From positions 7,378,001 through 7,442,000 of the forward strand of contig NZ_JAGPYQ010000001.1 of NCBI RefSeq assembly GCF_018070025.1: 64,000 nt of DNA. The letters are read 5' to 3'. Origin of the DNA: Streptomyces liliiviolaceus (GTDB lineage Bacteria > Actinomycetota > Actinomycetes > Streptomycetales > Streptomycetaceae). The position numbers and the translations under genes were made by a program. This document shows positions 7,138 to 15,750 of the stretch, in pieces; the stretch's first letter is position 1, and each line of letters begins with the position of its first letter. The notes under the pieces were generated by a model. That model was not told where the DNA came from. It searched no databases and worked only from the letters and a program-made list of their open reading frames with translations.

Positions 7138-8184
7138 TCACCCCGGGTGCGGCCCGCGGGTGAGGGGGTTCGGGGCCGGGTCCGGACCGGGAGCTGGGGC
7201 GGGGGCGGGGGCCGTGGCCGGGGCCGGGGCAATCCTCTCCGCCTCGTGCGGTGCGGGCGCGAAGACCCGGTGAAGACCCGCTTCGAGATCGTCGAGGGCC
7301 CGCCGCGCGGTCACGATCCGCTCGCGCAGCTCGCGTTCGGCCTCGATCCCCGCGAGCTGCAACGGCGTCGGCACCGGCACCGGCACCGGCACCGCGGGGA
7401 GTACGCCGGCCGCCCCGCTCGCCTCCTCCTGCTCGCGCTCCAGTTCGCGGGCCTCGTCGAGGGAGCTGATGACGACCCCGATGAGCACATTGACGAGGAC
7501 GAAGGAGGCGAGCAGCACGTAGGAGGCGTAATAGACGATGCTCCAGCGGGAGATCTCCAGGCCCGCGCGGACCGAGTCGCCGAGGCCGTCCAGGGTCATC
7601 AGGAGGAAGAGGGTGAGCACGGCGCGGCCGAGGGAGCCGAAGTGCTCGGGGTCGCTCTCGGCGAAGGCGACCCAGCCGACCATCGCGTAGACGTAGAGCA
7701 GCAGGGCGCCGACGATCAGGAAACTCATGGTGCCGGGCAGGCTGCGGCCCACGGCGACGAGGAAGACGCGCAGCTGGGGCAGGAACCTGGCCGTGCGCAG
7801 GACGCGGGCCAGGCGCAGCAGCCGCAGGATGGTGCCGTTCTCGCGGACGACGGGCAGGAACGCGGAGAACACGACGGCCAGGTCGAACAGGTTCCACGGA
7901 TCGCGGAAGAACTCCCGCGGGCGGTCCGCGTGGGCGCCCGCGCGCAGCAGGATCTCCACCGTGAAGGCCGCCAGGAAGCAGTGCTCGACGAGTTTCAGCT
8001 GTCCGTGCCAGTGGTGGACGACGCCCGTGTAGGTCTCGATGCCGAGGACCAGCGCGTTGGCGATGATCAGCCCGAAGACCGCGGCGCCGAACCAGCGGGC
8101 CTCGGTGACGCCGCGACAGCGTGCGGCCAGGGCGGCCCGGGAACGGCGGGTGCCGGGTAAGTGTGTGGCCGCGTCGTCCGTCAT
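7138..8184 (-). CDS. Voltage-gated-type cation channel (bacterial NaChBac-like ion transporter)
   Basis: A 348-residue single six-helix channel subunit (PF00520 type), expected to form a tetramer in the membrane. S1 to S3 run over residues about 28-115. The S4 voltage-sensor candidate is RENGTILRLLRLARVLRTAR, with arginines at roughly three-residue spacing. The pore-loop filter reads TLDGLGD, where NaChBac-type sodium channels have a TLESW-like sequence, so the selectivity may differ. After S6 there is a charged helix (LDEARELEREQEEA) and then a Pro-Ala/Pro-Val dipeptide-rich tail. It is divergent from the TerB-like gene, and a 30-base palindrome lies between them. Confidence 0.87.
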   Translation of the reverse strand: MTDDAATHLPGTRRSRAALAARCRGVTEARWFGAAVFGLIIANALVLGIETYTGVVHHWHGQLKLVEHCFLAAFTVEILLRAGAHADRPREFFRDPWNLFDLAVVFSAFLPVVRENGTILRLLRLARVLRTARFLPQLRVFLVAVGRSLPGTMSFLIVGALLLYVYAMVGWVAFAESDPEHFGSLGRAVLTLFLLMTLDGLGDSVRAGLEISRWSIVYYASYVLLASFVLVNVLIGVVISSLDEARELEREQEEASGAAGVLPAVPVPVPVPTPLQLAGIEAERELRERIVTARRALDDLEAGLHRVFAPAPHEAERIAPAPATAPAPAPAPGPDPAPNPLTRGPHPG

Positions 8185-8225: not shown

Positions 8226-8255
8226 GCTTATTTCTACACTACTGTAGAAATAAGC
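8226..8255. promoter_or_regulatory. BlaI-type operator 1 (perfect 13-base arms)
   Basis: A perfect inverted repeat with 13-base arms GCTTATTTCTACA and TGTAGAAATAAGC around CTAC. The core TCTACA-N4-TGTAGA recurs at 10412-10429 and 12037-12052. The TACA/TGTA half-sites are those known for BlaI/MecI/CopY repressors, and a BlaI-family gene lies at 11424-11813. It sits 42 bases before the channel start (minus strand) and 56 bases before the TerB-like start (plus strand), so it could control both. Confidence 0.72.
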
Positions 8256-8311
8256 GATGCCCGGGCCGTTCCAGGCCGACCGGGCACACCTCTCATGCAT
8301 ACGGAGATCTC

Positions 8312-8767
8312 ATGGCCCTGTGGGACCGCATCAAGGATTCCGCGTCGACGATGCAGAACCAGCTGGTGGCGAAGAAGAACGACCTCAAGAGCGGTGCCTT
8401 CCGCGACGCCTCCATGGCGATGTGCGCGCTGGTCGCCGCCGCCGACGGCACGATCGACCCGTCCGAGCGCCGCCGGGTGGCCCAGCTCATCGCCACCAAC
8501 GAGGTGCTGCAGAACTTCCCCGCCGACGACCTCCAGCGCCGCTTCGACGCCAACCTCGACAAGCTGGTCGCGGACTTCGACTTCGGCAAGGTCAGTGTGT
8601 TGCAGGAGATCGCCAAGGCCAAGAAGAAGCCCGCCGAGGCGCGTGCCGTGGTCCAGATCGGCATCGTCATCGGCGGCGCCGACGGCGACTTCGACAAGAC
8701 CGAGCAGGCCGTCGTCCGCGAGGCGTGCTTCACCCTCGACCTGCCGCCGCACGAGTTCGACCTCTGA
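8312..8767 (+). CDS. TerB-family tellurite-resistance-like protein
   Basis: A 151-residue TerB domain protein, an all-helical fold. Two acidic metal-type loops are visible, AADGTIDPSER and GADGDFDKTEQ, in the two symmetrical halves, matching the family's calcium-binding-like sites. The ATG at 8312 follows ACGGAGA and gives the family N-terminus MALWDRIKDSA; a longer open frame upstream runs through the palindromic operator and is rejected. Ter proteins act in envelope or metal stress responses, often with TerD, and a TerD gene with the same operator occurs 3.8 kb downstream. Confidence 0.88.
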   Translation: MALWDRIKDSASTMQNQLVAKKNDLKSGAFRDASMAMCALVAAADGTIDPSERRRVAQLIATNEVLQNFPADDLQRRFDANLDKLVADFDFGKVSVLQEIAKAKKKPAEARAVVQIGIVIGGADGDFDKTEQAVVREACFTLDLPPHEFDL

Positions 8768-8841
8768 CAACCACCGCTGCCGGAACGGGCCGGGCGGACG
8801 GGACGGGCGGGGCGGACGGGGCGACGACCTCGTCCACCTCG

Positions 8842-8877
8842 CCCGTCCCGCATGTTCCGCCCGTCCCGCATGTTCCG
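8842..8877. repeat. Two tandem 18-base repeats between convergent genes
   Basis: Bases 8842-8859 and 8860-8877 are identical copies of CCCGTCCCGCATGTTCCG; a degenerate third copy follows to about 8904. Upstream GGACGGG runs (about 8798-8820) are complementary to the CCCGTCC part, so the RNA could fold as a two-way terminator between the TerB-like gene and the convergent LCP gene. Confidence 0.6.
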
Positions 8878-8909
8878 CTCGTTCCACATACTCCGCATGT
8901 TCCGGCAGG

Positions 8910-10376
8910 TCACAGAATCCCGTCGGGGTCGAGACCGGTTCCCACCGTCAGGGTCACCACGCCCGCGGCGGTGTCCGACCCCTGCGCGGCCCGGGTGTCG
9001 GGCAGCCGCGACGCGAGCACCTTCGCCTGCGCGCCCATCCCCTGCGGATAGGTGGCCGTGGTGGCGCGGGTCGTCTCCGGGGCGTTGCCCGTGCCGACGA
9101 CGGTGAACCCGGCCTGGCGCAGTTTCGCGGCGACGACGGCGGCCCGCCCCGAGACGCCGGTGCCGTTGAGGACCTGGACGCGGACACCGGACGCGTATAT
9201 CAAGTCGTCCTTGGCCTCGGCCTGCAGTGCCTTCTTGTCGACCTCCTTGTCCTTGGCCAGGGAGGTGAACAGGTCGTCGGCCTGCGGGTACTGCCACACG
9301 ACGTTGGCCTTGTCGGCGGCCACGTCCGCCTCCCGCGGGTAGTTGGGCACGGTGAGGAAGGTCAGCCTCTTGCTCGGGATGCCCTTCACCTCGGACGCGA
9401 GGGCGTACAGCGGCTTGATGCCGGCCAGGTCCTCGTCGGTGGTCAGGGACTTCGTGGCCGACTGGAGGAAGTCGTACAGCGAGGTCGGGCTGGTCAGCTT
9501 GGACTGCGCCTTCTCGGCCAGCGCCTCCATGAACTCCTGCTGGCGGCCGATGCGCCCGAGGTCGGACCCGTCGCCGACGCTGTACCGGGCGCGTACGTAG
9601 CCGAGCGCCTCCTCGTCCTTGACGGTCTGGCAGCCGGCTTCCAGGTCCAGGTGGGCCTTCTCGTCGTGGATGGCCTCCTCGGGGCAGACCTCGATGCCGT
9701 CCAGGGCGTTGACCATGCCCTTGAAGCCCTGGAAGTCGACGGACATGAAGTGGTCGATACGCAGTCCGGTGTTGGCCTCGACCGTCTTGATGGTGCAGGC
9801 GGCGGCTCCCGCGACCTCGCCGCCGAGACCGCCGATCGCGAACGCCTCGTTGATCTTGGCGTGGTGCGGGGCGGAGGTGGTGTCGTCGCCCTTCTCGCAC
9901 GCGGATATCTGCACCCAGGAGTCGCGCGGGAACGACACCACGGTCGCCCATTTCCGGTTGGCCGGGACGTGCATCACCATCAGGGTGTCCGACTGCATGG
10001 TGCTCAGGCCCTTGCCGTACTTCCCGTTGTCGCCGTCACGGCTGTCCGAGCCGACGACCAGGATGTTCTTCGAGCCCGGACTGAGGTTCTCGGGACGGTC
10101 CCCGCCGAGCTTGTTGTCGATGTCGGCGGCGCCGATGTTGCCGTTCAGGTCCTGGTATATCCACACGCCGACCCCGGCCGTGCCGAGGACGAGCACCGCG
10201 AACACCCCCGCCGTCCACGCGACGATCCGGCCCCGCCGTGTCAGCTTCGTCGGCCGCGCCGAACGCGCGCCCCGCCCCGACCTGCTTCCGGCCGGAGCGT
10301 GCCGCCGCTGTCCCCTACCGCCCACAGGCGCCCCTTTCCCCGCGCTCGGCCTCCATCCGGCCGGCCCCTGACTCAC
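8910..10376 (-). CDS. LytR-CpsA-Psr (LCP) family protein with LytR_C domain
   Basis: A 488-residue membrane-anchored LCP phosphotransferase, the family that attaches wall teichoic acids or other glycopolymers to peptidoglycan. A basic N-terminus of about 45 residues precedes one membrane helix (about 47-70). The LCP catalytic domain follows, with SDTLMVMHV and TVVSFPRDSWV containing the conserved Asp and Arg residues. The C-terminal LytR_C domain begins near VRVQVLNGTGVSGRA. The start at 10376 gives a normal N-in membrane topology. A BlaI-type operator lies 36 bases upstream, which is an unexpected regulatory link. Confidence 0.93.
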   Translation of the reverse strand: MSQGPAGWRPSAGKGAPVGGRGQRRHAPAGSRSGRGARSARPTKLTRRGRIVAWTAGVFAVLVLGTAGVGVWIYQDLNGNIGAADIDNKLGGDRPENLSPGSKNILVVGSDSRDGDNGKYGKGLSTMQSDTLMVMHVPANRKWATVVSFPRDSWVQISACEKGDDTTSAPHHAKINEAFAIGGLGGEVAGAAACTIKTVEANTGLRIDHFMSVDFQGFKGMVNALDGIEVCPEEAIHDEKAHLDLEAGCQTVKDEEALGYVRARYSVGDGSDLGRIGRQQEFMEALAEKAQSKLTSPTSLYDFLQSATKSLTTDEDLAGIKPLYALASEVKGIPSKRLTFLTVPNYPREADVAADKANVVWQYPQADDLFTSLAKDKEVDKKALQAEAKDDLIYASGVRVQVLNGTGVSGRAAVVAAKLRQAGFTVVGTGNAPETTRATTATYPQGMGAQAKVLASRLPDTRAAQGSDTAAGVVTLTVGTGLDPDGIL

Positions 10377-10411
10377 GAGCGCTCAGCGCCCCCGTACTCC
10401 GATCGGCGAAA

Positions 10412-10429
10412 CTCTACATTCATGTAGAG
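10412..10429. promoter_or_regulatory. BlaI-type operator 2, upstream of the LCP gene
   Basis: Perfect inverted repeat CTCTACA-TTCA-TGTAGAG. It has the same TCTACA-N4-TGTAGA core as the sites at 8226-8255 and 12037-12052. It lies in the gap between the end of the M56 peptidase gene and the start of the LCP gene, both on the minus strand, so it would give the LCP gene its own BlaI-controlled promoter. Confidence 0.7.
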
Positions 10430-10484
10430 ATACGGGCGGGGGGTGGGTACGACTCACCCCGCCGGCCGCCCGCCGGGCCCGTGC

Positions 10485-11417
10485 TCACAGCGGCGTCGCC
10501 GCGTGCAGGATGAGGACCATCGTCACCGCGGAGTTCGCGGAGGACAGCGCGGACACCGCGGTCCCGGCCGCCGCGCCCCACGCGGCGAGGCCCACCGTGG
10601 TGAACACCGACGGCCAGGTGCGCGGCACGGGCGCGGGGCCGAGCAGCGCGGCGACCCGGCGCGGCACCGGGCCCGGCGCGGCGAGGCCCGCGAGCGTGGG
10701 CACCGGGGTGCCGCGGGAGACCAGGGCGGCCTTGCCGATCGCGCAGGCCACGGCCCGGCGGCTGCCGACCACCTGCGCGGCCTCCTCGTCCGCCCACCGT
10801 TCCGTCGTGTAGGACACGGCCGTGCACAGCGGACGCAGGAACGGGTTGGCGCGCGCGGCCAGCTGGGCGGCGAGCAGGAACCGGTGGTGACGGGCGGCCA
10901 GATGGGCGCGCTCATGGGCGAACAGGGCGCGCCGCTCGGCCGGTTCGAGACAGGAGAGCAGCGCGGTGGTCACCACCACCCGGTCGCGGCGCCCGCCGGG
11001 GAGGGCGTAGGCGTACGGCACCTCGTCGGGCAGGACGGCCACCTCGGTGCCGGGCAGGTCGGCGAGCGCCAGGTGGGCGCTGCGGCGGACCCGCCGGTGC
11101 CGGTGCAGCGTGCGCCCGCAGACCAGCAGCACCGCGAGGAGCGCCGGGATCGCCAGCTTCCCGGCGATCTCGTCGTACGGCACGGCCTCGCGCACCTCGG
11201 GGTCCGACCAGCCGTCGGGCAGCGGGTTGCCGGGCAGCTGGGCCGTGCCGACCACCATCAGCAGTCCCAGGCAGACCGTGCTGCACACCGCCATGACCAC
11301 GGCGAGCCCGGTCAGCAGCCGGGTGGCGGTCCGCGGATACAGCCGCAGCTCGGCGAGCCGGGCGATCGGCCACGCCGTCAACGGCAGGACCAGCGGCAGA
11401 AAGACGAACAACCCCAT
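10485..11417 (-). CDS. M56 family membrane metallopeptidase (BlaR1/MecR1-like signal protease)
   Basis: A 310-residue polytopic membrane protein with the zinc protease motif HERAH at residues 168-172, in the context LFAHERAHLAARHH, followed by a membrane helix and ERWADEEA, which probably supplies the third zinc ligand. In BlaR1/MecR1 this domain cleaves the BlaI repressor after a signal. The extracellular penicillin-binding sensor domain of BlaR1 is absent, so the inducer must be different or sensed by the membrane part. The gene starts six bases after the blaI-like stop, as a classic repressor/antirepressor pair. Confidence 0.9.
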   Translation of the reverse strand: MGLFVFLPLVLPLTAWPIARLAELRLYPRTATRLLTGLAVVMAVCSTVCLGLLMVVGTAQLPGNPLPDGWSDPEVREAVPYDEIAGKLAIPALLAVLLVCGRTLHRHRRVRRSAHLALADLPGTEVAVLPDEVPYAYALPGGRRDRVVVTTALLSCLEPAERRALFAHERAHLAARHHRFLLAAQLAARANPFLRPLCTAVSYTTERWADEEAAQVVGSRRAVACAIGKAALVSRGTPVPTLAGLAAPGPVPRRVAALLGPAPVPRTWPSVFTTVGLAAWGAAAGTAVSALSSANSAVTMVLILHAATPL

Positions 11418-11423
11418 GAGGCT

Positions 11424-11813
11424 TCAGTCTTCCCTCTCCGCCTCGGGGTGGGCCAGCAGTTCACGCAGGAGTCGCTCGTCGTTCGGCTCCAGGGACGTCA
11501 CGAAGCTCGCGAGTACGGCTTCCCGGTCCCGTTCGCCGTCGAGGACCCGGCGCATCCGGCGGGCGGCCAGACCCGCCTCGTCCGACGCCGCGGTCCAGGC
11601 GAAGGACCGGCCGACGCGTTCCCGGGTCACGGCGCCCTTGGCCAGCAGCCGGGTCAGGATCGTGATGACGGTCGTGTAGGCGAGGTCGCCGCCCAGCCGC
11701 TCCTGCACCCAGCCCGCCGTCGCGGGTCCCTCCGCCGCGCGCAGGGCAGCCAGGATCTGGGCCTCCAGCTCACCCTGTCCCCGCCGCGGGGGACGCCGCC
11801 GCTGGTCCGTCAC
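11424..11813 (-). CDS. BlaI/MecI/CopY family transcriptional repressor
   Basis: A 129-residue winged-helix repressor of the BlaI family. The DNA-binding part shows GELEAQILAALRAAEGPATAGWVQERL, then TTVITILTRLLAKGAVTRERVGRSFAW; the C-terminal helices are for dimer formation. The GTG at 11813 is chosen because AGGGAG lies just upstream and the length then fits the family (about 125 residues); the longer open frame adds an arginine/proline-rich stretch not expected in BlaI. It forms an operon with the M56 protease. Three sites matching BlaI-type operators occur within 4 kb, in front of TerB/channel, LCP and TerD genes. Confidence 0.9.
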   Translation of the reverse strand: MTDQRRRPPRRGQGELEAQILAALRAAEGPATAGWVQERLGGDLAYTTVITILTRLLAKGAVTRERVGRSFAWTAASDEAGLAARRMRRVLDGERDREAVLASFVTSLEPNDERLLRELLAHPEAERED

Positions 11814-12132
11814 GCCCTGTCTCCCTTCCGCCGACTCCGAAACACGGGCGGTCCATCGTATCGACGCCGGACGGCCGGCCATGACGCCCGGGCCCGCCGC
11901 CACGCGCCGACCGGCACGGACCGGACGCCGGGGCCGGCGCTCCGGCAAGCGCGCACCGGCCCGCCCCTCCGGCCCCACCCTTCACCTCCGTACGGCACGA
12001 CGGAGCCACGACGAAGACGCCGCCTCTTCCCCTTTTTCTACAGTGTTGTAGATTTCATAACGGGGTCCCGGACGGGTACCCGCCCCTCACGCACCGAGCA
12101 AGCATCGAGCACACATCGAGAAGGAGTACGCA
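11814..12132. promoter_or_regulatory. Divergent blaI/terD intergenic region with BlaI-type operator 3 (12037-12052)
   Basis: This 319-base gap separates the divergent repressor and TerD genes. The only strong signal is the inverted repeat TCTACA-GTGT-TGTAGA at 12037-12052, in a local T-rich run, 81 bases before the TerD start and about 224 bases before the blaI start. It probably serves the TerD promoter; control of the blaI-M56 operon from the same site is possible but distant. Confidence 0.68.
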
Positions 12133-12708
12133 GTGGGAGTTTCCCTGGCCAAAGGCGGCAATGTCTCGCTCAGCAAGGAGGCGCCCGGCCTGACCGCCGT
12201 GCTCATCGGCCTCGGCTGGGACGTACGGACCACGACCGGCGCGGACTACGACCTCGACGCCTCGGCCCTGCTGCTCGACGCCTCCGGCAAGGTCCTGTCC
12301 GACCAGCACTTCGTGTTCTACAACAACCTCACGAGCCCGGACGGCTCGGTCGAGCACACCGGTGACAACCTCACCGGCGAGGGCGAGGGCGACGACGAGT
12401 CCGTCAAGGTGAACCTCGCGGGCGTACCGGCCGAGGTCGACCGGATCGTCTTCCCGGTCTCCATCCACGACGCCCACGCCCGCGGGCAGAGCTTCGGACA
12501 GGTCCGGGGCGCCTTCATCCGCGTCGTCAACCAGGCCGGCGGCGCCGAGATCGCGCGCTACGACCTGTCCGAGGACGCCGCCACCGAGACCGCGATGGTC
12601 TTCGGCGAGCTGTACCGCCACGGCACCGAGTGGAAGTTCCGCGCGGTCGGCCAGGGCTACGCCTCAGGGCTCGCGGGCATCGCCGCCGACTTCGGCGTCA
12701 ACGTCTGA
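12133..12708 (+). CDS. TerD-family stress protein
   Basis: A 191-residue TerD domain protein, the usual length. It starts [13 protein letters not shown] and has the calcium-site segments GLGWD and [12 protein letters not shown], with [19 protein letters not shown] and the ending [17 protein letters not shown], all hallmarks of the family. TerD proteins bind calcium and act in tellurite, phage or envelope stress, and affect development in Streptomyces. The GTG at 12133 follows AAGGAG. The upstream operator links it with the BlaI-type repressor. Confidence 0.95.
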
Positions 12709-12855: not shown

Positions 12856-15750
12856 ATGCGGCACGTGCGGTACGTGGTCTGGGGCGGCGCGTTCGTGGCG
12901 ACATCGGCGGTGCTCGCCGTCGCCGTCATGAACGGGGAACTCGGCGACACCACGATTCTGACCACCGTCCTCGGCTTCGGGATCGCCGCGACGGGGCTCG
13001 CCCTGAATCTGGCGCGCACCTCCGCCGACGGGGAACGCCCTTCACCGGCCGAGGTCCTGGACGCACGCGCCGAGCAACTGGCGGCGGCGGTCGAACAGCA
13101 GTGGCAGTCCGAGTGGCGGCTGCGACGCCTCCAGGACCCGGAACCCATCGCGGTGCACTGGTCCTCCGCGGAACCCTGGCTGGCCGATCCGCGGGAGCCC
13201 GGCACGGACGGACGCGCACCGGACGACCGGCTGGAGAACATCGCGGCCGCGCTGGACCGCGTGGCGTCGCGGCGACTGGTCGTCCTGGGCGAGCCGGGCA
13301 GCGGCAAGACCGTACTCGCCGTCCGGTTCACGCTGGACGTCCTCGCGTCACGGGACCCGGGGGCGCCCGTGCCCGTGGTGGTGTCGATGTCGGACTGGCG
13401 CCCGCAGAGCGAGAGCCTCGACACCTGGCTGGCGCGGTACCTCGCCGGCCACTATCCCGGTGCGTCCTGGGCCCGTGAACTCCTGGACGCCGGCCGGGTG
13501 ATCCCCGTCCTCGACGGCCTCGACGAGATGGCCCCTCCGCTGCGCACCTCGGCCGTGCGCCGGCTGAACACGGACCTCGACGTCGGCCGCCCGCTGCTCA
13601 TGACCTGCCGCTCGGCCGTGTACGCCGACGTCGTGCGATCCAGCGACGTCCTCACATCGGCGGCGGTCGTGGAACTGCAGCCCCTCGACTTCGAGACGGC
13701 GGCCGCCTATCTGCTGCGTACCGCCCGCCCCACCCGCGGCCCCGGCGGCACCCGCACCACCGCCTGGCACCCGGTGATCGACCGCCTGCGGACCGATCCC
13801 GGCGCCCACCCCTGCACCGCGTTACGAGCCGTACTGCGCACACCGCTGATGGTGACCCTCGCGAGGACCGCCTACGACGACACGGACGCCGACCCGGCCG
13901 AACTCCTCGACGACGGCGGACGGGACGACCGGGCACAACGGCAAGCGCGGTTGGAGGCGCATCTGCTGGACGCCTTCGTACCGGCCGCCTACCGGGACGA
14001 CAACCGCCGGGTGGACACGGCACTGCACACCCTCGGCTTCCTGGCCCGCCACCTGGAGCGGCAGGGATCACGCGAACTCGCCTGGTGGGAACTGCGCCGC
14101 GAACTGCCTCTGCCGCTGCGGACGATGGGGCCCGTGCTGGTTGTCGGGGCCCTTGCCGCGGCGGTCATCGTGCTGACGACGGGATCGGAACGCGGCTGGG
14201 CGGTCCTCATCACAGCCGGCTTTCTGGTTCCCCTCTGCGTCGGGCAGGCCTTGTTCCTGCGGAGCGACAGCGGTCTCGCAGGCGGGCTCGGACCGGACGG
14301 ATCCACGAGGACCGGGCGCGCACGCGTACCCCGTGAACTCGTCTGGGTACTGATGGGAGCCGTACCGCTCGGACTCGTCGTAGGCATGGCAGGAAGCCTC
14401 AGCCTGAATTCCTACGCCACCCCGGTGCAAAGGTGGCCGTGGCTGGGAAACGGTGCTCTGGCCATGACCGGAGGCCTGGGCCTGGCAACCGCCATCGGGG
14501 TTCTCGGCCTGCTGGGGAGACCGGTCCCCAGCACCGTTCCGCTCACGACCGGACGGGGCGGGCACTCCTGGCGCCGACGCGCCCTGGCGAGCCTGGTCGT
14601 GCTGGCGGCTGCGGCGATCGGCGTCCTGGTACCGGCCGCGCTGATGCTTCCCTTTCGTATCAGCGTGCTCTGCGCCACGGCTCTGGGGATCGCGGTGACC
14701 GTCGCGCTCTGGCCGAACCCCGGCGCGGCGGGCCGAACCCTCTCCCCGCCCCGGGCAACCGCCGGTCGCCGGGCACGCCCGCGCGGCCAGGTACTTTCCG
14801 TCGTGGGGCGCGGCATGGTCAAAGGACTGGCGGCGGGATTGCTGCTCGGTCTGGCGTTCGGCGTCAGCAACGGCTCCGCAGTGGCCGTCCGGGCCGCCGT
14901 GGACCGGGACGACTACCCAGCGGGCGGTTCGTGGCACACGTCCGCCGATGGCGGCAGAGTGCTCGTGGCCCACGGTTGGAGCCACCGGAGACTCGCGGAC
15001 GGCACGCGCGTCGTGTCCACGCCCGGTCCTGTCCGCTGGGCCGTGGACCGACAGAGCGACGGTGCTGTCTACTCGATGACCATGACCAGTTTCGCCGCGG
15101 GCTGCACCGGTGTGTGCGAGACCTTCAACAGTCCGGTCGAACTGCACGAGCATCCCGATCGGGGAGACCTGCTGGCGAAACTGCCCGACGGCACCTTCGC
15201 AGAGGACTGGGACCTGCAGGACGAACTGCCGCCGGCCAGCAGAGGCTGGCTGCAGTTGAGCGCCCCCGAAGCGCTCTTCGGCCGGGCCACGGGCGAGGGA
15301 CTCGCCTTCGGACTCTCCCTCGGCCTGGTCAGCGGCCTGACGGTCGCGCTCCACCGCTGGCTGGTCAGCCCCACCGACATCGCCAGGGCCGGTACCCCTC
15401 TGGACGGTCTGCGCGCGGACGGGGCGACGGCCGTGAGCCGCGGCGTCCTCCTGTTCCTGATCGCCTCCGCCAACGCGGCCCTCGTGTTCCGGTCCTGGTT
15501 CGATACGACGTTCGCCGATGGGTCACTCGTGATCTGGCTGATCACCGCACCCCTCGCCATCGCCCTGAGCGCCTGGGGCTGGCTGCTCGTCACCCGGCTG
15601 TGGCTGTGCGGCACGGGCCGGCTGCCCTGGCGTCTGATGCGCTTCCTCGAAGACGCCCACCGCAGAGGAGTGCTCCGGCAGGCGGGCGCCCTGTACGAGT
15701 TCCGGCACGCCCGCCTTCAGGAACGGCTGGCCACGAGGCTCGACGTATGA
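12856..15750 (+). CDS. Membrane-anchored NACHT-domain NTPase
   Basis: A 964-residue protein. Two N-terminal membrane helices (about 5-25 and 33-52) and a short helical linker lead to a NACHT-type NTPase: Walker A GEPGSGKT at 145-152, Walker B VIPVLDGLDE at 215-224, and a sensor-like LLMTCRSAVY near 247-256. From about 425 onward there are several more membrane helices in two clusters, split by a likely extracellular segment (about 675-800) holding the cysteine pair GCTGVCETF. NACHT proteins are STAND signalling switches; some bacterial ones are antiphage defences, but no effector domain is recognisable here. A rare TTA leucine codon lies at 13822-13824 (codon 323). The gene is convergent with msrB, 16 bases apart. 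Confidence 0.85.
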   Translation: MRHVRYVVWGGAFVATSAVLAVAVMNGELGDTTILTTVLGFGIAATGLALNLARTSADGERPSPAEVLDARAEQLAAAVEQQWQSEWRLRRLQDPEPIAVHWSSAEPWLADPREPGTDGRAPDDRLENIAAALDRVASRRLVVLGEPGSGKTVLAVRFTLDVLASRDPGAPVPVVVSMSDWRPQSESLDTWLARYLAGHYPGASWARELLDAGRVIPVLDGLDEMAPPLRTSAVRRLNTDLDVGRPLLMTCRSAVYADVVRSSDVLTSAAVVELQPLDFETAAAYLLRTARPTRGPGGTRTTAWHPVIDRLRTDPGAHPCTALRAVLRTPLMVTLARTAYDDTDADPAELLDDGGRDDRAQRQARLEAHLLDAFVPAAYRDDNRRVDTALHTLGFLARHLERQGSRELAWWELRRELPLPLRTMGPVLVVGALAAAVIVLTTGSERGWAVLITAGFLVPLCVGQALFLRSDSGLAGGLGPDGSTRTGRARVPRELVWVLMGAVPLGLVVGMAGSLSLNSYATPVQRWPWLGNGALAMTGGLGLATAIGVLGLLGRPVPSTVPLTTGRGGHSWRRRALASLVVLAAAAIGVLVPAALMLPFRISVLCATALGIAVTVALWPNPGAAGRTLSPPRATAGRRARPRGQVLSVVGRGMVKGLAAGLLLGLAFGVSNGSAVAVRAAVDRDDYPAGGSWHTSADGGRVLVAHGWSHRRLADGTRVVSTPGPVRWAVDRQSDGAVYSMTMTSFAAGCTGVCETFNSPVELHEHPDRGDLLAKLPDGTFAEDWDLQDELPPASRGWLQLSAPEALFGRATGEGLAFGLSLGLVSGLTVALHRWLVSPTDIARAGTPLDGLRADGATAVSRGVLLFLIASANAALVFRSWFDTTFADGSLVIWLITAPLAIALSAWGWLLVTRLWLCGTGRLPWRLMRFLEDAHRRGVLRQAGALYEFRHARLQERLATRLDV

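Follow-up and report, generated by a model that had tools for sequence, protein, structure and literature searches.

Does the BlaI-type repressor encoded in a stretch of the Streptomyces liliiviolaceus genome control the genes that surround it through the inverted repeat TCTACA-N4-TGTAGA? The stretch analysed here (the window; 64,000 nucleotides, contig NZ_JAGPYQ010000001.1, positions 7,378,001 to 7,442,000) carries this dyad near genes for TerB, TerD, an LCP family transferase and an ion channel, and an original prediction, made from the letters of the window alone, had linked the dyads to a local BlaI repressor and its membrane protease. Based on a computational follow-up, we consider it probable that BlaI represses a dispersed envelope and membrane-stress regulon via these dyads and that the adjacent protease relieves the repression. 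This interpretation draws on the rarity of the motif, the conservation of its target genes, its co-occurrence with BlaI, its overlap with −10-like hexamers and the signature motifs of the protease, all of which were computed.

The window contains three exact copies of TCTACA-N4-TGTAGA, with all 12 specified bases perfect and at the predicted positions (Table 1). All three stand in intergenic gaps upstream of genes: site 1 between the divergent ion channel and TerB genes, site 2 before the LCP gene, and site 3 between the divergent BlaI and TerD genes. The further claim that the window holds no other copy proved correct on rescanning the 64 kb at up to one mismatch; the five further matches each carry two or three mismatches, and shuffled sequences average 3.4 matches (up to three mismatches). 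From base composition, 0.00018 exact copies are expected per window and 0.031 per genome. In the whole genome (11,133,145 bases in four contigs), five exact and six one-mismatch copies were detected, against none for the reversed control, and the motif is thus not frequent in these 11.13 Mb. One exact copy outside the window (C1:1566503) lies between a TerD gene 93% identical to that of the window and a BlaI gene 92% identical, and another (C2:1451314) precedes a small gene and Spo0M. One-mismatch copies were located between Spo0M and a CNNM pair (C1:1568079), immediately before a further BlaI–protease pair (C2:1400899), before the protease gene of another such pair (C2:1415732), and inside an extended open frame that encodes imelysin and cupredoxin domains (C2:1420404). 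The copies at C1:4249262 (in an open frame) and C2:2502242 were set aside as operators, being probable chance occurrences. The second BlaI/TerD locus (G000:C1:1566503-1568094; L012:8886-13773) contains Spo0M and CNNM genes, and no protease gene stands beside its BlaI.

The exact site is conserved in other Streptomyces, as it was found in 38 of the 61 genomes of a genus draw (107 sites in total; two for the reversed control). We further collected 120 loci picked by their BlaI gene, namely, 40 from the genus draw and 80 named records, the latter being the best of more candidates and weighted to close relatives (one locus is shared between the two sets). Other loci were picked by the site itself, and the conclusions on enrichment rest on the BlaI-picked loci only. 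Across the 758,833 bp of the 80 named loci, TCTACA-Nk-TGTAGA occurred 100 times at k=4 and not once at any other k from 0 to 12, with none for the reversed control, while the letters of the spacer were variable. The 120 BlaI-picked loci include 149 exact sites. For 148 of them, a family gene (BlaI, TerD, TerB, Spo0M, LCP, TatA-like, ion-channel, CNNM or small HhH-like) follows within 350 bp; one is without assignment, and none is inside a matched gene.

In the same 120 loci, a site with at most one mismatch was present within 250 bp upstream of 45/50 TerB, 55/68 TerD, 31/40 Spo0M, 79/119 BlaI, 8/13 LCP, 6/7 HhH-like and 2/3 ion channel genes. Neighbours taken as negatives were without it (Na/H antiporter, 0/11; TrkA-C, 0/11; flotillin, 0/3); the absence from protease genes (0/110) is a weak control, because the BlaI coding sequence precedes the protease. 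An exact site precedes the ion channel homolog in L292 and lies within 350 bp upstream of three ion channel genes in the 80 named loci, and sites recur at a distance from BlaI, before Spo0M, TerB and TatA-like genes. Therefore, the proposed targets TerB, TerD, LCP and the ion channel are supported, but the list was too short, since Spo0M, the TatA-like gene, CNNM and the second TerD/BlaI locus also belong to it. We hold with high confidence that the motif and its regulon are real.

Two small proteins were noted behind the operator. A TatA/E-like small membrane protein recurs there (L115, L123, L124, L126, L164, L290), and at 11 sites in the 80 named loci its gene stands in the place divergent from BlaI. 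A protein of approximately 73 residues with weak likeness to DUF4332 (E 0.055) is found in L091:3984-4205, L016:8931-9242, L095, L120 and L121, and precedes Spo0M in L016, L091 and L095. TerB homologs were detected in 50 of the 61 genomes of the genus draw. Tellurite resistance was not adopted as the real function, because TerD is present in all 61 genomes (at least two copies each), whereas the exact operator is present in 38.

The occurrence of the site was compared with that of the repressor in 296 Streptomyces genomes, using a cut-off of E ≤ 1e-36 for the BlaI ortholog and the flanked pattern WTCTACA-N4-TGTAGAW. With kinship ignored, both were present in 144 genomes, BlaI only in 43, the site only in seven and neither in 102 (odds ratio 49, Fisher p 3e-35). 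In addition, 20 TerB or TerD homologs were taken from genomes of the 61-genome draw that lack the BlaI ortholog: the top TerB homolog (at least 75% identity) from each of the seven qualifying genomes, and the top TerD homolog from 13 of the 21 BlaI-lacking genomes, though some of these TerD genes may be other paralogs. None of these 20 had a site at up to one mismatch; two showed a two-mismatch match, a possible remnant, and 18 had at least four mismatches. These counts, together with the conservation described above, bear out the predicted link between the operator, BlaI and the TerD, TerB, LCP and ion-channel genes, and indicate that BlaI is very likely the protein that binds the dyads.

The position of the dyad was then read against the −10 elements, which in Streptomyces avermitilis are reported to follow TANNNT (PMC8780764). 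For this count we used sites with up to one mismatch in all collected loci, including those picked by site, in the orientation of the target gene. A TANNNT hexamer of the TAGATT type begins at operator base 13 in 93% of 69 TerD, 79% of 28 TatA-like and 82% of 11 LCP sites. In 64% of 56 TerB sites, a TANNNT starts five bases ahead of the operator, leaving two free bases; in 81% of 37 Spo0M sites, one starts six bases ahead, and all three defined bases are free. At site 1 of the window, TANNNT occurs within the operator in both directions (TACACT and TACAGT). No offset exceeded 22% among the 95 BlaI sites, and a clear −35 was not found in the collected loci. An operator placed over the −10 or start region fits repression, and BlaI likely acts as a repressor on the dyad promoters.

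Autoregulation was considered separately. A site lies within 350 bp upstream of BlaI in 59 of the 80 named loci; in 66 of the 80, the 130 bp preceding BlaI contain an element of the TACGAT/TATACGAT type, a count made without a control pattern. In many other species the operator is near enough to touch the BlaI promoter. In the window, the −10 candidate of the BlaI–protease operon is approximately 175 bp off, so direct control of this operon by site 3 is unlikely.

The predicted family of the repressor was confirmed, as the Penicillinase_R domain spans the whole protein, and profile matches were obtained with PDB 2g9w, MecI (1sd6 and 1okr) and BlaI (1sd4). The solved structure closest by sequence is 2g9w, which we take to be Rv1846c. 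A match to the CopY/TcrY copper repressors was not obtained (NCBIfam CopY_TcrY equivalog, 23.1 bits against a cut-off of 122), and the protein has no cysteine, hence no CopY C-terminal Cys-x-Cys motif.

The partner of BlaI had been called an M56 protease, an assignment that calls for correction. Its best Pfam match is Peptidase_M48 (60.2 bits), and the M56 match is weak (13.9 bits against the M56 cut-off of 31); judged by its sequence, it is a clan relative of M48/M56 that is BlaR1-like in operon position and motifs. The two genes are separated by 6 bp, and in 73 of the 80 named loci the gene immediately following BlaI encodes this protease. HExxH begins at residue 168 and is followed by E206xxxD210, and all 32 orthologs compared keep H168, E169, H172, E206 and D210; HExxH plus ExxxD is described as the gluzincin signature of BlaR1 (PMC9834060). 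Four transmembrane helices surround the protease in BlaR1/MecR1; here, hydropathy analysis showed three N-terminal hydrophobic stretches, and a C-terminal helix was uncalled at the cut-off used. In BlaR1, the signalling loop EL1 (residues 56-96) is reported to lie between helices 2 and 3 (PMC9834060). The similarly placed loop 58-86 of the protease is at least 90% conserved in 24 of 29 columns, compared with 189 of 310 for the whole protein; the best-conserved 29-residue stretch starts at 54-55, and the first helix is about equally conserved (20/23). On the basis of the BlaR1 topology, we take this loop to be extracellular. The protease was correctly predicted to lack a penicillin-binding sensor: the Pfam scan of its 310 residues gave the protease domain only, and there is no room for a sensor domain.

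Table 1. Genes, operator sites and candidate −10 elements of the BlaI locus, with window coordinates
Feature	Position	Strand	Remarks
Ion_trans family channel	7138..8184	-	Pfam Ion_trans E 7e-42; predicted target of site 1, divergent from TerB
Operator site 1	8226..8255	.	GCTTATTTCTACA-CTAC-TGTAGAAATAAGC; 13-base perfect arms; core 8233-8248; exact match
TerB	8312..8767	+	Pfam TerB PF05099 E 8.4e-27; predicted target of site 1
LCP family glycopolymer transferase with LytR_C domain	8910..10376	-	Pfam LytR_cpsA_psr E 1e-46; predicted target of site 2
TAGAGT, candidate −10 of LCP promoter	10411..10416	-	In operator half-site
Operator site 2	10412..10429	.	7-base arms; core 10413-10428, C/G flank; exact match
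BlaR1-like membrane zinc protease	10485..11417	-	Pfam M48 E 3e-16, M56 E 0.03
BlaI-family repressor	11424..11813	-	Pfam Penicillinase_R PF03965 E 2.6e-24, residues 14-121 of 129
TACGAT, candidate −10 of BlaI–protease operon	11855..11860	-	~175 bp from site 3
Operator site 3	12037..12052	.	6-base arms; exact match
TAGATT, candidate −10 of TerD promoter	12049..12054	+	Within operator site 3
TerD	12133..12708	+	Pfam TerD PF02342 E 3.7e-86; predicted target of site 3

Downstream of TerD, the window encodes a NACHT-domain protein of 964 residues (12856-15750). It was set aside as a part of the system, as this gene was not found in any of the 80 named BlaI loci and no PADLOC match was obtained.

In the proposed mechanism, a BlaI dimer would bind TCTACA-N4-TGTAGA over the −10 region and hold off TerD, TerB, the LCP ligase, the ion channel, Spo0M with its small HhH-like partner, and the TatA-like protein, with the CNNM transporters as less consistent members of the regulon. 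The sensor-less membrane zinc protease would sense an envelope or membrane signal, probably via the conserved loop that joins helices 2 and 3, and its cleavage of BlaI would relieve the repression. We infer both that the protease controls BlaI and what kind of signal it would sense.

The range of the dyad and of related repressors was also analysed. A scan of 246 genomes of the class gave the flanked pattern in 14 of 24 Streptomyces and in five of 222 others, the latter with one copy each. Of 79 genomes of the class, 39 carried PF03965 genes, and loci from 30 of these were used for a comparison of dyads. Within 300 bp upstream of 25 PF03965 genes from outside Streptomyces, CTAC-N8-GTAG was found in 11, CTAC-N5-GTAG in six and the N6 spacing in none, while upstream of five Streptomyces PF03965 genes CTAC-N6-GTAG was found in three; a control pattern, CATC...GATG, gave at most 4/25 at any spacing. 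As the N8 and N5 forms stand upstream of BlaI genes of other genera (L228-L246, L250-L251, L253-L256), the operator spacing seems to differ by clade.

Paralogous BlaI genes within Streptomyces have similar dyads. A second BlaI–protease subfamily was observed whose genes lie close to GTCTACA-N4-TGTAGAC-type dyads (L014:6900-7331, L015:5714-5748, L122, L138, L143, L144), several of these loci having two dyads 19 bp apart. The flanking base was G in 9 of 14 half-sites of paralogs, compared with 0/122 for TerD, 1/52 for TerB, 0/36 for Spo0M and 0/16 for LCP. LCP sites are mostly flanked by C (11 of 16 half-sites, site 2 of the window included), which weakens a rule of T/A flanks for this BlaI; solely the G at the flank separates the paralog sites. 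Dyads that are mostly G/C-flanked were also noted within 0.8 kb of PAP2-family genes (L133, L140, L141, L294, L296, L298, L300), and the product of the only one scanned, that of L140, is like undecaprenyl-diphosphate phosphatases (SepP-like). This arrangement suggests that other BlaI pairs may control the wall lipid carrier. In L014, a BacA/UppP gene lies 2.6 kb away from the dyad.

Several observations weigh against control of these genes by BlaI through the dyads. The description of the dyads as BlaI-type operators was right for the half-site, since TACA/TGTA is the published half-site of BlaI, MecI and CopY (PMC7253601, PMC4549145), but not for the spacing: the operator cited for CopY, BlaI and MecI is TACANNTGTA (PMC7253601), and its N2 spacer is 2 bp shorter than the N4 found here between the same half-sites, so the binding geometry must differ. 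At the TerD, TatA-like and LCP promoters, a single base (the last T) of the hexamer is outside the operator, and 84% of TerD sites have a second TANNNT at offset 2, in the 5′ half. A site precedes just 11/37 CNNM1 and 23/57 TatA-like genes, and 17 of the 149 exact sites adjoin BlaI as the sole family gene, which autoregulation would explain. The genome itself contains five PF03965 genes, so a paralog could also bind. The co-occurrence figures take no account of phylogeny, and the T/A flank used in the count excludes LCP-type sites, among them site 2 of the window. Furthermore, 43 of the 187 genomes with the BlaI ortholog are without an exact T/A-flanked site. In four of these (G001, G015, G049, G059), the core matches exactly but the flanking bases differ, and seven (G001, G003, G014, G031, G038, G131, G147) were rescanned at one mismatch. 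Sites with one mismatch were detected before TerB (G003, G013, G014, G031, G038), before TerD (G001, G039) or within approximately 220 bp of BlaI (G131, G147), but they are less telling, because 66 such matches in 14 genomes compare with 16 for the reversed control and chance plays a part. Of the genomes with the site only, G194 has a BlaI of 61% identity at the site, below the cut-off; G151, G172, G304 and G355 have another BlaI–protease pair at or near the site; and in G171 a single site precedes a TatA-like gene by 336 bp, and two more form a pair at a paralogous BlaI. The remaining genome, G309, yielded no BlaI at E ≤ 1e-36, although TatA-like, Spo0M and channel genes are preceded by sites there.

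The rival that deserves most attention accepts repression by BlaI and leaves the neighbouring protease uninvolved, release being due to a ligand, redox state or another protease. The second BlaI copy of the genome, which lacks an adjacent protease gene, and the seven of 80 named loci in which no protease was found directly downstream (contig ends may contribute) are in its favour, as is the sensor-less BlaR of Mycobacterium tuberculosis, for which redox control by WhiB4 is proposed and the signal described as unresolved in PMC5473688. We nevertheless regard it as rather unlikely, in view of the 73 loci with the protease directly downstream, the retention of the gluzincin motifs, and the direct cleavage of BlaI by BlaR1 reported for Staphylococcus aureus (PMC9834060). 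Less probable again is that the dyads are bound chiefly by a different regulator or a BlaI paralog, with the local BlaI incidental. The five PF03965 genes and the very similar dyads of the second subfamily would agree with this, and an alternative sigma factor of S. avermitilis has a predicted regulon that is reported to include a tellurium-resistance gene and pspA (PMC8780764). Against it, the T/A-flanked sites follow the local BlaI ortholog over the 296 genomes, TerB and TerD genes are without sites where that ortholog is absent, the half-site is of the BlaI-family type, and the G flank of the paralog half-sites is rare at regulon sites.

It is very improbable that the dyads are merely autoregulatory sites of the BlaI operon, with the Ter, LCP and channel genes as bystanders, even though most BlaI genes in the named loci have a site upstream, some sites adjoin BlaI alone, and the BlaI proteins of Clostridium thermocellum are reported as autoregulated (PMC8457756). 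In the 80 named loci, the site follows a divergent TerD (39 with a site, one without) and not BlaI (in the absence of TerD, 20 with and 20 without); moreover, sites recur away from BlaI, no fixed −10 relation to BlaI was detected, and the BlaI −10 candidate of the window lies approximately 175 bp from site 3. That chance palindromes, terminators or RNA hairpins account for the dyads can scarcely be credited: perfect inverted repeats can fold into hairpins, but a spacer of four in 100 of 100 copies, the variability of its letters, the position before genes, the expectation of 0.03 copies per genome and the empty reversed control all speak against this reading.

BlaI/BlaR pairs are mostly read as switches of β-lactam resistance, and the signal of the sensor-less versions is treated as open in PMC5473688. 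Because the predicted regulon spans several promoters, the signal of such a pair can be sought with one reporter. To our knowledge, Ter proteins are widespread and their function is unsettled. Placing TerB and TerD under one regulator with Spo0M, an LCP ligase, a TatA-like protein and cation channels or transporters would give them a concrete physiological setting. Among open-licence papers, searched by title and the start of the abstract, no report linking BlaI to Ter genes in Streptomyces was found.

The pair resembles BlaI–BlaR1 and MecI–MecR1 of S. aureus and Bacillus licheniformis in having a Penicillinase_R repressor beside a membrane gluzincin (HExxH, ExxxD) and TACA/TGTA half-sites. 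It differs in the lack of a penicillin-binding sensor, in the N4 instead of the N2 spacer and in its several dispersed promoters, and where the known pairs control β-lactamase or PBP2a, this one is predicted to act on Ter, Spo0M, LCP, channel and TatA-like genes. The M. tuberculosis pair, BlaI (Rv1846c) and BlaR (Rv1845c), is likewise reported with a sensor-less BlaR and a regulon beyond β-lactamase; the targets given in the cited part of that report are blaC, ATP synthase and cytochrome bd genes, with no Ter genes among them (PMC5473688). In C. thermocellum, BlaI_0696 and BlaI_1845 are described with BlaR1 partners and non-lactamase targets identified by DNA affinity purification sequencing (DAP-seq). 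Their GTCTAT/GACTAT repeats (5 nt apart for BlaI_0696) form paired dyads, and their regulons comprise three and one operons, compared with single dyads at several promoters in Streptomyces (PMC8457756). As half-sites, spacing and pairing of dyads differ there, spacing is not uniform in the BlaI family.

In content, a parallel is offered by the sigma-W regulon of Bacillus subtilis, whose yceC-E products we presume to be TerD-family proteins. In that regulon, spo0M is reported to be among the strongest targets, and yceCDEFGH is also dependent on sigma-W (PMC3498285). The sigma-W regulon is run by an extracytoplasmic function (ECF) sigma factor and an anti-sigma factor, whereas a repressor and a protease would run the Streptomyces system; by analogy, the BlaI regulon resembles a membrane-stress regulon in content while the switch differs. 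We tentatively propose, as a possibility short of an even chance, that a rewired BlaI–BlaR1-type pair of Streptomyces is the counterpart of the Bacillus sigma-W response, in which the protease would read the membrane or wall via its extracellular loop and free the Ter, Spo0M, LCP, TatA and ion-channel regulon, the N4 geometry being particular to Streptomyces and the paralog circuits perhaps being kept apart by the flanking G.

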